This document shows positions 19,411 to 38,890 of a stretch of 53,937 bases of DNA, piece by piece. Position 1 is the stretch's first letter; every line of letters starts with the position of its first letter. The DNA lies in NCBI GenBank assembly GCA_903899655.1, contig CAIUKF010000014.1, positions 1 through 53,937 of the forward strand, given 5' to 3'. Made by a program: the position numbers and the translations under genes. The notes under the pieces were generated by a model. The model saw only the letters and a list, made by a program, of their open reading frames with translations, was not told where the DNA came from and did no database searches. Origin of the DNA: an uncultured bacterium (GTDB lineage Bacteria; Patescibacteriota; Saccharimonadia; Saccharimonadales; Saccharimonadaceae).

Positions 19411-20559
19411 ATGCAAAAAGACGTATATCAACAATCATTAGAATTACACAAATTACATCACGGAAAAATCGAAACAGTTAGTAAAATAAAATTAGATTCT
19501 CGCGAAGTATTGGCGTTGGCTTATACACCAGGCGTAGCTGAAGTCTCGCGCGAGATTGGTCGCGATGCATCATTGGCGCGTGAATACACCTTAAAACGTA
19601 ATACAATTGCTATTGTCAGCGACGGGTCAGCAATACTTGGTTTAGGAAATTTAGGTGCGCTGGCGGCGATTCCAGTTATGGAAGGTAAGGCAGCGATTTT
19701 TAAAGAATTTGCTGGCGTTGACGCTTTTCCAATCTGTTTGGATACACAGGATACTGAAGAAATTATCAAAGCCGTCAAACAAATTGCGCCAGTTTTTGGC
19801 GGCATTAATTTAGAAGATATTTCAGCGCCAAGGTGTTTTGAAATTGAAAAACGTTTGCGCGCCGAAATGTCGATTCCAGTCATGCACGACGACCAGTGGG
19901 GTACTGCCACAGTTGTTTTGGCGGGTATGATTAACTCATTAAAATTAATGAATATCACCAAAGACGCAGTCAAGGTCGTAATTAACGGCGTTGGATCAGC
20001 TGGTGTTGCCACGGCCAGGTTGATGATGAGTTATGGTATCAAAAATATTTTGTTTTGTGACAGCCAAGGCATCATTCACGCTGGCAGGGCGGAACTGACG
20101 GCTGAAAAACAAGAACTAATTGATGCAAGTGTGGCGAAGCCGTTTGAAGGCATGCTAGTCGATGCCGTTAAGGGCGCTAATATTTTTGTTGGTGTGTCTA
20201 AACCGGGTGTTTTGACGCAGGATATGGTGCGAACAATGGCGCCAAAACCAGTTATTTTTGCCTTGTCTAACCCACAACCTGAAATATTGCCAGATGAGGC
20301 GTTGGCCGCTGGTGCATTGGCGGTTGCTACGGGTCGCAGTGATTTTCCAAATCAATTGAATAATTCACTGGTTTTTCCTGGTGTATTTAAGGGTATGTTA
20401 GAAGCTAATATTCCGCAGTTCAAGATAGAGATGTTCAGTAGTGTGGCGCAGGCTTTGGCTGATTCAGTTGTTGATTTGTCGCCAACTAAAATTTTGCCAT
20501 CGATGTTCGATAGTCAAGTGGTAACGGTTGTATCAGAGACTGTCAAAAAATTTGCTTAA
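19411..20559 (+). CDS. Malic enzyme (NAD(P)-dependent, short bacterial form)
   Basis: A 382-residue cytoplasmic enzyme catalysing oxidative decarboxylation of malate to pyruvate with NAD(P)H production. Evidence: LALAYTPGVAEVSREI with the catalytic Tyr, VSDGSAILGLGNLG, LEDISAPRCFEIE (metal-binding Glu/Asp), PVMHDDQWGTA, the Rossmann motif INGVGSAGVA, and VIFALSNPQPEI. Length is that of the short form without the PTA domain. Coenzyme preference is not decided by what I can see. A TATAAT at 19364-19369 is followed by a hairpin (about 19378-19399); a second -10-like TAAAAT lies 6 nt before the ATG. Confidence 0.93.
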   Translation: MQKDVYQQSLELHKLHHGKIETVSKIKLDSREVLALAYTPGVAEVSREIGRDASLAREYTLKRNTIAIVSDGSAILGLGNLGALAAIPVMEGKAAIFKEFAGVDAFPICLDTQDTEEIIKAVKQIAPVFGGINLEDISAPRCFEIEKRLRAEMSIPVMHDDQWGTATVVLAGMINSLKLMNITKDAVKVVINGVGSAGVATARLMMSYGIKNILFCDSQGIIHAGRAELTAEKQELIDASVAKPFEGMLVDAVKGANIFVGVSKPGVLTQDMVRTMAPKPVIFALSNPQPEILPDEALAAGALAVATGRSDFPNQLNNSLVFPGVFKGMLEANIPQFKIEMFSSVAQALADSVVDLSPTKILPSMFDSQVVTVVSETVKKFA

Positions 20560-20573
20560 ATAACATTATTTGT

Positions 20574-20688
20574 GTCAAAAACTCCTCGGGTCCTGCCGAC
20601 CAGTTTCCCCTAATATTTTTTTAACGATTACATTAAAAAGAATATCAGGGGCTCCCCACTGGACGTCACCCGCGGAACAGTTTTTGAC
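20574..20688. ncRNA. Structured intergenic element A (paralogue of 33264-33351)
   Basis: Fills most of the gap between malic enzyme and zwf. On the minus strand the core (20672 to 20587) begins CGGGTGACGT and ends GGCAGGACCCG. It folds as P1 CGGGT/ACCCG, P2 CCAGT/ACTGG, P3 CCCC/GGGG extended by TGATATT/AATATTA, and an apical TTTTTAA/TTAAAAA stem. A perfect 10-bp inverted repeat, GTCAAAAACT (20574-20583) and AGTTTTTGAC (20679-20688), brackets the core. The strand transcribed is not known. Element B at 33264-33351 has the same ends but different, compensated stems. No Rfam family recognised. Confidence 0.55.
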
Positions 20689-20716: not shown

Positions 20717-22000
20717 ATGATTACAAAATTACTTATTTTTGGTATTACGGGTGATTTGGCGACGCGTAAATTGTTGCCGGCGCTAGAACAAATTATTAGT
20801 ACGGGCAATTTTAATGATTTGTCGGTGATTGGTGTGTCGCGTCACGAGGTTAATCAATCTGATTTATTTGTGCATTGTGGCAATAAGACCTTTTTAGATG
20901 GTAAATTATCGATTTTTACGATGGATTTGGCGTCAGCTGATGAGTATTTAAGGTTGAAGCAGTATGTTGCGCTGGGTGACGACGAACAATTGTTGATTTA
21001 TATGGCCGTACCGCCACTGTCAACGGCGCAGATCGTCGACTTTTTGGGTGAAGCCGGTATTAATACGCCAAATGTAAAAATTTTGTTCGAAAAGCCATTC
21101 GGTATTAATTTAGAATCAGCCGAAAAGCTGATTGAACAAACCGCTAATCATTATCAAGAGCAACAGATTTATCGGATTGACCATTATTTAGCCAAAGAGA
21201 TGGCACAAAATATTATTGCCTTTAGGGCACGTAACGCTTTGTTTTACCATGTTTGGAATAATAATTTTATTGAATCAGTCGAGATTGTGTCACTGCAGAC
21301 TGGCGGTATTGATGGTCGCGCGCAATTTTATGAACAAACTGGCGCTTTACGCGATTTAGTTCAAGGACATTTGATGCAACTGCTAACTTTGACTTTGATG
21401 GATATCCCACAGGGACTTGAATGGGAAAGGATGCCAGAATTACGTTTAGCGGCTTTAAACCAATTACAGCCTGTTGATCCCGGTAAAGTTGTTCGGGCGC
21501 AATACGAAGGCTATAAAGAAGAAGTGAACAATAACGATAGCCAGGTTGAGACTTTTGTATCAATCGAGATGTCGTCTAATCAGCCAAATTGGGTTGGCGT
21601 GCCGATTCGTTTAACAACTGGCAAACAATTGTCTGAAACGACCGCCGAAATTCGAATTCGTCTAAAAACTAGCAACGGCGCTCAAAGTAACTGTTTAGTC
21701 TTTAAAATTCAGCCAAATGAAGGTATTAACATCGAATTATTTGTCAAAAAACCTGGTTATAGTCGTGAATTTGAATCACGCAACCTAAGTTTCAATTATG
21801 AAAGTGATGTTAAATTACCCGATGCATACGAACAGGTACTAGTCGATGCAGTTTCTAGCGAAAAAAGCTTATTTACGGGTAGTGATGAAGTACTGCGTAG
21901 TTGGCAAATATTAAAGCCAATTCAAGATGACTGGAACAGTTGGCAGCAACAGCCAAAAACCTATCCAAAGGGCAGTTCAGCTCAATCAATTTTAGCGTAG
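20717..22000 (+). CDS. zwf: Glucose-6-phosphate 1-dehydrogenase
   Basis: First enzyme of the oxidative pentose phosphate pathway: glucose-6-P to 6-phosphogluconolactone with NAD(P)H. About 427 residues. Motifs: LLIFGITGDLATRKLLPAL (nucleotide binding), LFEKPFGINLESAEKL, catalytic YRIDHYLAKEMAQNI, and RLTTGKQLSE. It is shorter than the usual 480-510, mostly in loops. The ATG at 20717 is preferred because TATAAT (20701-20706) ends 10 nt upstream; the open frame runs 49 codons further back through structured element A, which is implausible as protein. The next pathway steps, pgl and gnd, lie 2-3 kb away on the opposite strand. Confidence 0.93.
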   Translation: MITKLLIFGITGDLATRKLLPALEQIISTGNFNDLSVIGVSRHEVNQSDLFVHCGNKTFLDGKLSIFTMDLASADEYLRLKQYVALGDDEQLLIYMAVPPLSTAQIVDFLGEAGINTPNVKILFEKPFGINLESAEKLIEQTANHYQEQQIYRIDHYLAKEMAQNIIAFRARNALFYHVWNNNFIESVEIVSLQTGGIDGRAQFYEQTGALRDLVQGHLMQLLTLTLMDIPQGLEWERMPELRLAALNQLQPVDPGKVVRAQYEGYKEEVNNNDSQVETFVSIEMSSNQPNWVGVPIRLTTGKQLSETTAEIRIRLKTSNGAQSNCLVFKIQPNEGINIELFVKKPGYSREFESRNLSFNYESDVKLPDAYEQVLVDAVSSEKSLFTGSDEVLRSWQILKPIQDDWNSWQQQPKTYPKGSSAQSILA

Positions 22001-30299: not shown

Positions 30300-32048
30300 A
30301 TGCAAGATGCCAAAGAGGAAGTTAGGGCGCGGCTGAATATCGAGGACGTGATTGGTGAATACGTTCCTCTTAAACGTGCCGGCCGAAACTTTCGTGGCCT
30401 CAGCCCATTTAGTGGCGAAAAAACGCCAAGTTTTTACGTCAGTCCTGACAAACATATTTGGCATGACTTTTCGTCCAACAAGGGTGGCGATGTCTTTACA
30501 TTTATTATGGAAGTTGAAGGTGTTGATTTTCGGTCGGCCCTGGAAATGTTGGCGCGCAAAGCTGGTGTTGATTTAACGATATATGACACCAAAGGCAGCC
30601 AAGAGATTGCCCAGCGAAAAAAAAGGCTATTACAGGCCCATGATTTAGCTGCCAATTATTACCAACAAAGTTTAATTAAAAACCAACACGCCATGGAGTA
30701 TGTCTTTGGCAAACGCAAACTTAGCAAAAAAATCGTGACAGATTTTAGAATCGGCTATGCGCCAACCAGTGGCGATGCTTTGGTGCAATTTTTAACTAAA
30801 AAAGGTTTTACCAAAAACGAATTATCACAGGCTGGGCTAGTCAATCAATACGGCGGTGATTTATTCCGCGGTCGCATGATGGTGTCATTGATGGACGGCA
30901 CGGGACAGGTAATTGGTTTTACGGGTCGCATTATTGTTGATGATGACAAAGCGCCAAAATATCTAAATACGCCACAAACTTTGCTGTACGACAAAGGCCG
31001 ACACGTCTTTGGTTTGTCGCAAGCCAAAGAATCAATTAGGACGGGTGATTATTCGGTAATCGTCGAGGGCAACTTGGACGTTATTAGCAGTCATCAAGTC
31101 GGCATTAATCAAGTTGTAGCAACCGCCGGCACGGCAATGACTGAACACCATTTGCGGGCCCTGGTGCGCCTCAGCAGTCATATTCGTTTGGCGTTTGATA
31201 GCGACAAAGCCGGCCTGGCGGCGACTGAGCGTTCGATTCCGATTGCTCAAAATGTTGGCGTTGATTTGACGATTATTACGCTGCCTGGTGGCGCCAAAGA
31301 CCCAGATGAATTGATTCAAACCGACCCTAAATTATGGCAGCAGGCGATTGATAACGCCGAACCAGCGGTCGATTGGCTGTTAAAGCAATATGCTTTGCGT
31401 GAAGACCTGCAAACAGCGGCTGGCAAACGTCGATTTACGACTGTAGCGCTGGATTTAGTACGATTGCTGACCGATTCGGTTGAACAAGAATATTATTTGA
31501 TTAAAATTGCCAAAATTAGTGATTCGTCGGTTGATGCGCTGAAAGAAAAATTGGATAGTGGCGTCAAAAAGTCCGAAAGGTCATACAAAGTGCCAGTTTC
31601 GCAATCTGATGTCTTACACGACCCAGCCTCATATCAAGACAACTTATTGGCGGTAGCACTGATTGATGGCGCAACCCATGAATTGTTTAAATTAGTCGAT
31701 ATTCAGACCTTTACGGGCGATGAAAGGCAAGCCGTTGCTAAATATTTGTCTGAATGTGGCGGCAAACCTGTTCGCGATACACCTGAAAGCTTGCAAAATT
31801 ATGATATCTATGTAAAAATATTACTATTAAGGGCCGACGCTCGATATGCCGAATGGAACGACCAAGATCGTTACTTTGAAACGGCACGATTGCTCCGCCA
31901 AGTTGCCACCGAGCACAAGAAAAAGCAAAAAGAAATATTAACTGAAAAATTACGCGACCTAGAATTATTAGGTGACGACGTTCAAGCTAACGAAATTCGA
32001 TCTCAATTAAACAATCTAATCAAGGAGATACAAAGTGGTAAAAGATAA
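30300..32048 (+). CDS. dnaG: DNA primase with zinc ribbon lacking its ligands
   Basis: 582 residues; makes RNA primers at the replication fork. The N-terminal CHC2-type domain keeps its fold but not its metal site: the canonical CPFH reads SPFS (Ser35, Ser38) and HCFGC reads HDFSS (Asp56, Ser59), while [17 protein letters not shown] otherwise matches well. The TOPRIM catalytic core is intact ([22 protein letters not shown]), as is the preceding [13 protein letters not shown]. The C-terminal helicase-binding region is present but diverged. rpoD overlaps its end by 14 bp, a reduced form of the classical macromolecular synthesis operon. Confidence 0.95.
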
Positions 32049-33072
32049 AAAAGTAGTTAATGACGACGAAGATATTGTATTGACTCCAGACGTGCTGGAA
32101 GCGATTGAATCAATTGAAGATTTGGAAGTGATTGATATTCCACTTGCCAACATTGACGGTCCCGCACCCGATGAATTGATTGACGAAGAAGAGGACGACG
32201 AAGACACCTTAAACAAAGGTCAATATTTTGATGATGCCAGTGATGACAGCGTCCGTTTATATTTGCGCGAAATCGGCAAAATTCCTTTGCTAAATTCTGA
32301 AGATGAACTTGCCTTGGCACTACGCGTTGTGGCCGGTGATAAAAAAGCCAAAGACAAAATGGCCGAAGCTAACATGCGTTTAGTTGTTTCGATTGCTAAA
32401 CGTTACAGTGGCCGTGGTCTGGACTTTTTGGATTTAATTCAAGAGGGAAATACTGGTTTGCTGCGCGCCGTTGAAAAATTTGATCCAGACAAGGGTTTTA
32501 AATTCAGTACTTACGCAACTTGGTGGATTCGCCAAGCGATTACGCGTGCCATTGCTGACCAAGCTCGTACGATTCGTATTCCGGTTCACATGGTTGAAAC
32601 AATCAACAAATTATTGCGCACCCAACGTCGCATGACCCAAGAATTAAACCGTGAGCCAACTATCGAAGAACTAGGCAAGGAACTTGAAATGGAACCTGCC
32701 AAAGTTGAATATGTTATCAAAATCAAACAAGACATCTCGTCACTAGACGCTGGTGTTGGTCGCGATGGTGAAGACGAAGACTCAGTCCTCGGTGATTTTA
32801 TCGAAGACGGCGACAGTGCAACCCCTGAAGAATCAGCCACTTCACAATTATTAAAAGAACAAGTTCAATCTGTCTTGTCGTCATTATCTGATCGCGAACA
32901 AAAAATTGTCAAAATGCGTTTTGGATTGGAAAATGGCAAGTCACACACCTTAGAGGAAGTCGGTCGTGAATTCGCCGTCACTCGCGAACGTATTCGCCAA
33001 ATCGAAGCTAAAGCCCTCGCTAAACTACGCAAACACAAAGACGCCAAAAAATTGCACGAATATTTGGGATAG
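32035..33072 (+). CDS. rpoD: RNA polymerase primary sigma factor (sigma-70, RpoD/SigA)
   Basis: 345 residues; directs promoter recognition. GTG start at 32035 preceded by AAGGAG inside dnaG. An acidic N-terminal stretch (about 60 residues, very rich in Asp/Glu) precedes region 1.2 ([17 protein letters not shown]). Region 2 includes [20 protein letters not shown] and [18 protein letters not shown], region 3 [11 protein letters not shown], and region 4.2 [19 protein letters not shown]. Region 4.2 keeps the residues that read TTGACA, and region 2.4 those that read TATAAT, in line with the promoters seen here. Confidence 0.97.
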
Positions 33073-33209
33073 TTCAGCTTTTCTGCCGTCCATCACCACT
33101 ATATTAATACAAATGGCCACTTTACGTGTGACCCTTTCGGGCCAGCACGTGGCGCTTGGCCTCCGCTACCACTTCGCATCCATCTGTATAAACATAGTGG
33201 AGCTGGACT
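33071..33209. ncRNA. Long imperfect hairpin after rpoD (candidate structured RNA or complex terminator)
   Basis: Nested pairing: AGTTCAGCT (33071-33079) with AGCTGGACT (33201-33209), CCACTAT (33096-33102) with ATAGTGG (33194-33200), GGCCA (33115-33119) with TGGCC (33157-33161), ACGTG (33124-33128) with CACGT (33146-33150), and CCC/GGG closing a TTTC loop (GAAA on the minus strand). The rest of the 303-bp gap to 33375 holds structured element B and no gene. I tried SRP and 6S RNA and could match neither. Direction unknown. Confidence 0.45.
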
Positions 33210-33263
33210 TAATTGCGCATAGATTTAAAAGTTAAGCATATTTTAGTGTAAAGCAAATTTCAA

Positions 33264-33351
33264 CGGGTGACGTTCGGCGGGGTGGCCCCAATTTACTACA
33301 AAATGGTAATCCATTTTTATAAATTAGGGGCGGAACGGACGGCAGGACCCG
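33264..33351. ncRNA. Structured intergenic element B (paralogue of 20574-20688)
   Basis: 88 nt between the convergent rpoD and kinase genes, starting CGGGTGACGT and ending GGCAGGACCCG exactly like the core of element A. P1 is CGGGT/ACCCG, P2 GTTC/GAAC, P3 CCCC/GGGG extended by AATTTA/TAAATT, and the apical stem AAAATGG/CCATTTT with a TAAT loop. Stems P2, P3 extension and the apical stem differ in sequence from element A yet remain paired, the signature of a conserved structure. Lying between gene ends, it is not a riboswitch for either neighbour. Confidence 0.55.
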
Positions 33352-33375: not shown

Positions 33376-33951
33376 TTAAACAATAAACTCAATTTCATCC
33401 AAAACTGTATCAATTTGTTGATGCAGTTGTTCGATATCGCCGTCATTAATAATATAATGGTCGGCAATCGCAATTGGTCCGCCTTTTTCCAAATTCTCAA
33501 TCTCGGCCCAATCGCGTTGGTCGGCTTCAAATTGTGATAGTGGGCGAACAGGGCGATTTAACAAACGTCGGTGACGCAACCGGCGAGGTGCGACAATGGC
33601 AATCAAAATTAGTTCGCCCGGAAAAGCGCTTTTTAAGGCCTTATATTCAGTCCAACTGTATAATCCGTCGGCTACAATTCGGTGTTGACCTGATGCAATT
33701 AAATCACGAATTTGGGTAATAATGCGCTGAGCAACAAAATCTTTGCCTTCTTTGGCACGTAATTCTTCGCGAAACATTTTTTCATTTTCTTGGGTATGGT
33801 CTAAACCTGCTTGAGTCAAAGCGTCCAAAATAACGCCACCAAAATAAACTTTTGGATAACCTTTTTCAGTAATATAATTAGCGGCTGAACTTTTTCCGGC
33901 ACCGGCCAAACCGACAAATGCGACTATCTTAATTTTTCGGGTATTAATCAT
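33376..33951 (-). CDS. P-loop nucleotide kinase, dephospho-CoA kinase-like
   Basis: 191 residues. P-loop VAFVGLAGAGKSSAANYI (11-28), then FGGVILDAL, a lid-like stretch VAPRRLRHRRLLNRP, and a C-terminal YIINDGDIEQLHQQIDTVL similar to CoaE-type and archaeal adenylate/dephospho-CoA kinases. It may phosphorylate dephospho-CoA in the last step of CoA synthesis, but the AAA_17/18-type kinase group is broad and I would not fix the substrate. Divergent from polA across a repeat-rich spacer. Confidence 0.75.
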   Translation of the reverse strand: MINTRKIKIVAFVGLAGAGKSSAANYITEKGYPKVYFGGVILDALTQAGLDHTQENEKMFREELRAKEGKDFVAQRIITQIRDLIASGQHRIVADGLYSWTEYKALKSAFPGELILIAIVAPRRLRHRRLLNRPVRPLSQFEADQRDWAEIENLEKGGPIAIADHYIINDGDIEQLHQQIDTVLDEIEFIV

Positions 33952-38775: not shown

Positions 38776-38890
38776 CTATTGGAATATGGCTATTGGAATA
38801 TGGCTGGAAGTAGCATTTAGTCATTGGAATATGCAAGATGGCGAATCGCAATCGCGCCAATAGCCACCTTCCAATAGCCAATAGCCAATC
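38775..38890. repeat. Dispersed TTGGAATATGG-type repeat, copy 4, tandem and inverted
   Basis: Two exact tandem copies of the 14-mer GCTATTGGAATATG (38775-38788, 38789-38802), a third related unit at 38821-38834, then the inverse CCAATAGCC repeated at 38856-38887. It fills the spacer between mutM and holA; the holA -10 box follows. Confidence 0.85.

Follow-up and report, generated by a model that had tools for sequence, protein, structure and literature searches.

A dispersed palindromic element with a covarying fold, probably mobile, at gene ends and within genes of Saccharibacteria and other bacteria

The 53,937-nt stretch of Saccharibacteria DNA analysed here (the window) carries two copies, A and B, of what is very probably a non-autonomous palindromic mobile element, one that is tolerated in open reading frames and that in the window's genus is often part of terminators. 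The element family is real and, in the sources searched, previously uncatalogued: none of them describes it, and papers on Rickettsia palindromic elements (RPEs), REPs and MITEs were found instead.

Copies, ends and fold

A and B share fixed ends, CGGGTGAC...GGCAGGACCCG. Their cores lie exactly where the original prediction had placed them (Table 1), and both contain the common ends that it listed, CGGGTGACGT and GGCAGGACCCG, along with GCCCC and TTAGGGG. All 924,537 bases of the window's own genome (labelled G000) were examined; the pattern CGGGTGACGT-N40-70-GGCAGGACCCG has seven exact matches there and a reversed-pattern control has none, so the likeness of A and B is not due to chance. Seeking both ends up to 4 kb apart, we found nine exact-ended copies in the complete genome, seven of a medium form (86-90 nt) and two of a large form (143 and 173 nt). 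The large form, also seen at loci L128 and L129 and without an Rfam match, has an additional structured domain of several hairpins, placed after the GGGG tract and before P3; it could be a more complete ancestor of the element. A short form in relatives, of 40 nt, retains only P1 and P2, and over all forms the element measures 40-173 nt. Apart from the terminator-type stem discussed below, the flanks of the G000 copies are unrelated. The element has the terminal inverted repeats, non-coding character and multiple copies of a MITE, and within the 4-kb limit the complete G000 held neither a gene-carrying copy or autonomous parent with the same ends nor a transposase inside any copy.

Table 1. 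Features of the window, and the two large copies elsewhere in the same genome
Feature	Position	Strand	Basis or remark
Malic enzyme gene	19411..20559	+	upstream of A
Left arm of 10-bp inverted repeat around A, GTCAAAAACT	20574..20583	.	
Element A core, medium form, 86 nt	20587..20672	-	pattern match, fold, alignment
Right arm of inverted repeat around A, AGTTTTTGAC	20679..20688	.	
Glucose-6-phosphate dehydrogenase gene	20717..22000	+	downstream of A
Sigma-70 factor gene	32035..33072	+	upstream of B
Dispersed structured repeat U1, GGCCACTTTACGTGTGACC...AGCACGTGGCGCTTGGCC	33073..33257	+	directly 5' of B
Element B core, medium form, 88 nt	33264..33351	+	
ORF convergent with B	33376..33951	-	no Pfam hit at cut-off used
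Palindromic repeat GGCTATTGGAATATGGC...CCAATAGCC	38788..38879		
Large copy, 143 nt	G000:C13:42378-42520		search for both ends
Large copy, 173 nt	G000:C10:9676-9848		search for both ends

The core of A is laid out as P1 (CGGGT/ACCCG), a 3-nt AGG bulge, an A.G mismatch, P2, an unpaired GGGG, and P3 (CCCC...AGGGG) with an apical stem. On the strands given in Table 1, A (-52.7 kcal/mol, z -7.3) and B (-36.6 kcal/mol, z -3.4) fold far better than shuffled sequence. When 108 matches were aligned to a covariance model, a fitting that itself favours the covariation score, 93.9% of cells were paired, and two-sided changes occurred at 20 of 25 pairs, in 441 cells versus 129 in shuffles; slid-helix controls gave at most 95 two-sided cells, far below 441. 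This agrees with the conserved structure proposed earlier from A and B. The internal stems named at that time hold for CCAGT/ACTGG in A and for the apical TTTTTAA/TTAAAAA and AAAATGG/CCATTTT, but GTTC/GAAC in B belongs to another register, because the helix that has the support of many sequences is formed there by CGTTCG and CGGACG.

P2 is variable in sequence but always paired. The inner P1 (GGGT/ACCC) and the first P2 pair are almost invariant, as a recognition site should be. The mismatch at position 7 is a non-canonical pair whose two bases are exchanged together, being A.G in 190 distinct cores, G.A in 21 (together 211/218) and something else in 7. The GGGG tract has no partner in the consensus and is conserved in 203 of the 218 distinct cores, a figure inflated because part of the set was found with a pattern demanding GGGG. 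There is a mild sign that the forward strand is the folding strand: its minimum free energy (MFE) is the lower one in 87/103, and G.U exceeds A.C at paired positions (46 vs 26). Rfam 15, searched with every form of the element and at permissive E-values, returned only sub-threshold, chance miRNA-like hits and nothing above the gathering threshold, confirming the initial impression that this is no known RNA family.

Placement at gene ends and inside genes

The 10-bp inverted repeat reported to bracket A is real, and its left arm, from 20574, is the base of a terminator-like stem; the malic-enzyme stop codon (20559) lies 15 nt before the start of that stem. B has no such flanking stem; the sigma-70 gene stops 192 nt before it, at 33072, and the convergent minus-strand ORF, which from a reading of its protein we take to be a dephospho-CoA kinase, has its 3' end 25 nt away. 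Seven of the nine G000 copies, A included, are 20-28 nt past a stop codon (P = 4e-9 under random intergenic placement, for a range chosen after viewing the data), and across the genus 10 of 14 terminator-type copies are within 18-27 nt of a stop. Most of the G000 gene-end copies have an outer stem, several of them an A-tract/T-tract one, e.g. AAACCCATTCCG-core-AGGGGGTTT; judged from its sequence, this arrangement resembles a bidirectional terminator whose loop is occupied by the element. A GC-rich stem and then a U-tract shortly after the stop are found in A and the other terminator-type copies and not in B, and many copies have no T-tract at all. The earlier suggestion of a clade-specific terminator is therefore apt in part, for this genus, but not in its restriction to a clade, since the element is also found in Omnitrophota and other phyla, and inside ORFs.

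A pre-existing terminator was considered and rejected, since G000 holds no terminator with the same loop and no element. At a G000 empty site opposite a copy in the congener G020 the stem is missing too. The stem thus probably accompanies the element when it moves, or else arises around it, and the element may supply terminators in very small genomes.

For copies inside genes we took 168 copies outside the genus and required both flanks to fall in one G000 protein gene, with the best-scoring frame inside one G000 ORF; the test covers genes with a G000 orthologue. Thirty-nine copies qualified (38 distinct sites, with L258 counted twice), and among these genes every one of the 39 is in frame and stop-free through the element, none being broken. 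The element is in sense orientation in 26 and antisense in 13. Thirteen of the in-gene cores are not multiples of three, and the flank length compensates. By our reading of the joined proteins, the hosts, essential genes among them, are presumably TyrRS, IleRS, tRNA-guanine transglycosylase, topoisomerase I, a penicillin-binding protein, ObgE, MnmA and TypA. In IleRS the element occupies the same site in three genomes, its P2 helix entirely rewritten yet paired; the fold thus seems to be maintained in place, or the copy replaced by conversion. Four element-derived peptides had no NCBIfam relatives up to E = 10.

Mobility and distribution

A hairpin-type mobile element was among the options of the original prediction, and it is now well supported by multiple copies with fixed ends, patchy occurrence, absence from orthologous sites and dispersal inside genes. 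Six G000 sites were compared with the orthologous spacers in relatives, and at five of them the element is missing from those spacers. G020 and G007 carry a copy at the malic-enzyme site and G016 has none; at the rpoD site G007 and G017 are occupied and others empty; and G000 itself lacks a copy present in G020, with the right flank 99% identical. One genome, G286, has identical cores in different genes (L334, L335, L336) and therefore recent spread. Some loci have different cores or opposite orientations in related genomes, which could also result from gene conversion. At one gene end a medium copy (L028) is matched in a close relative by a large copy of opposite orientation (G000:C13:42378).

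No direct repeat marks the junctions as a target-site duplication, and divergence of the empty sites hides the exact limits of the unit. Copies in the g2 genus have four flanking bases on each side that complement those opposite, in 63, 61, 58 and 46 of 65, and lie in a site with the weak consensus ACATSGR|YCSAGA. Since the complementary flanks differ among copies with identical cores, these flanks are palindromic targets or else short inverted duplications; a search of g2 relatives for exact empty sites or an inverted target duplication gave sites that were too diverged.

A covariance-model search of related genomes had been proposed as a check on the original prediction. With a model built from 23 sequences, it found the element in 24/28 genomes of the genus, with 1-13 copies in carriers and 0 in the other four. 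Occurrence is patchy in the order (40/294 genomes), and 8 of 379 genomes sampled across the phylum have the element. An exact pattern scan of GTDB contigs, for which about one random match is expected from the pattern length, matched at least 118 stretches. By title, the matches listed include Saccharibacteria, many Omnitrophota and a few MAGs labelled Nitrospirae, Levyibacteriota, Gottesmanbacteria, Uhrbacteria, Bacillota, Actinomycetota and Deltaproteobacteria. The sparse labels other than Saccharibacteria and Omnitrophota may include binning errors, and one or both of L228 and L245 look like chance matches. At least nine copies occur in a single Omnitrophota genome (JACPAY), and the Omnitrophica copy L212 is in frame within a conserved gene. 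A phage or plasmid origin was rejected: blastn found no match in either the phage or the plasmid collection, and viral contigs gave 0 matches, then 1 among 2.9 million. That sole match, L390:101-171 (IMGVR_UViG_3300046003_002157), could be on a host-derived or misbinned contig.

Other repeats adjoin the element. (i) U1 (Table 1) has a 92% identical copy without the element at G000:C8:8685-8869 and also lies 5' of several element copies in related genomes; the two may form a composite unit. (ii) The palindromic family GGCTATTGGAATATGGC...CCAATAGCC, abundant in G000 with some 37 strand hits besides the one in Table 1, adjoins or splits three decayed element copies, at least two of them interrupted. 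(iii) A third conserved stretch, AATAAACAACAACC...CATACTCGGATAGC, which contains a long inverted repeat, lies 5' of four copies (L025, L027, L056, L062).

Possible mechanism and relation to known repeats

Under the mobile-element reading, a unit with ends CGGG...CCCG would spread as a discrete piece and retain a single fold. Its terminal stem with the AGG bulge and A.G mismatch, its paired P2 and its GGGG/CCCC/GGGG tracts have the look of a structure that a mobility enzyme might recognise, and we infer transposition in trans, by an enzyme acting on the folded single strand. The unit would be tolerated wherever it breaks no gene, that is in frame and stop-free in ORFs and otherwise between genes. 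In the window's genus many copies, A among them, would sit within, or replace, intrinsic terminators just past stops, with presumed terminator activity. More tentatively, and with the odds against it, the family could represent a new class of mobile element, spanning several phyla, with the folded strand itself (RNA or ssDNA) as its transposition substrate, recognised via an invariant stem, bulge and A.G together with the G/C/G tracts, moved by an enzyme new to such repeats and translatable in either orientation, with the large form ancestral.

The strongest competitor, possible though on balance doubtful, is a host-serving 3'-end element, either an intrinsic terminator or an mRNA-stability hairpin, copied because it is useful rather than selfish. 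It would explain the tight placement 20-28 nt past stops in G000, the terminator-like A-tract/T-tract stems in the genus and the turnover at the same gene ends in relatives (malic enzyme, rpoD), but elsewhere the element lies inside ORFs in both orientations, many copies have no T-tract, and B has no terminator stem. Intrinsic (Rho-independent) terminators resemble the many genus copies that sit on an A-tract/T-tract stem with a stop codon some 20 nt before it, and differ in that here a conserved 40-173 nt core fills the loop, a core that also occurs without the terminator stem and inside genes.

REPs of the GTAG/CGTC superfamilies are hairpins of 20-40 bp with an unpaired terminal GTAG or CGTC tag and an associated RAYT. 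That the element is such a hairpin moved by a RAYT/IS200 (Y1) tyrosine transposase is improbable. It is a small bulged hairpin with no evident target duplication, and Y1_Tnp genes are present in 17/28 genomes of the genus; yet a Y1 gene is missing from two nearly complete carriers, G004 (99%, with 8 copies) and G011 (98%, with 6), it is present in the element-free G025 and G026, and four Y1 loci that were inspected have no element at their flanks. With no association across the 28 congeneric genomes, we rejected Y1/RAYT transposase as the partner. The terminal bases, moreover, are paired at both ends as P1 and bear no GTAG/CGTC tag, and the element has an internal bulge and G/C/G tracts and is usually two to four times longer than a REP. 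What the two share is a small hairpin often downstream of coding regions and sometimes intragenic; CGTC-REPs, too, are without a known transposase (PMC3733652).

A conserved trans-acting small RNA or riboswitch, which the strong covariation and the forward-strand bias would suit, is very improbable given the variable copy number, differing neighbours, absence from 4/28 congeners, insertion inside ORFs in both orientations and lack of an Rfam relative.

MITEs such as Correia/NEMIS, ERIC, RUP and YPAL are non-autonomous, with terminal inverted repeats, structured transcripts and occasional ORF fusions (PMC2229807). The element resembles them in these traits, with structured transcripts presumed; in contrast, no TA or other target duplication was found for it, the empty sites being too diverged, a search of G000 found no autonomous parent, and its structure covaries across phyla. 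The closest known behaviour is that of RPEs and the Wolbachia WPEs, palindromes of ~100-150 bp that are intergenic or in frame in conserved ORFs, adding a peptide (PMC2229807, PMC10969869). The element likewise is a dispersed palindrome in frame in conserved protein genes (39/39, one site double-counted), and by analogy it works like a protein-coding palindromic element, although we do not claim membership in those described. No homology to RPE/WPE was detected at the peptide level, where four element peptides were compared with NCBIfam. Unlike them, the element is hosted by Saccharibacteria, Omnitrophota and other MAGs of several phyla, is mostly smaller, undergoes compensatory helix rewriting, enters genes in both orientations and has larger structured forms.

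Most reports of protein-coding palindromes come from Rickettsia and Wolbachia. Another family now appears to behave in this way in the streamlined Patescibacteria and, in one verified case at least, in an Omnitrophota genome, adding peptides to enzymes such as, by our reading of the proteins, TyrRS, IleRS and tRNA-guanine transglycosylase. Its covariation is strong enough to make the mechanism testable, and the element gives a handle for finding the mobilising enzyme.
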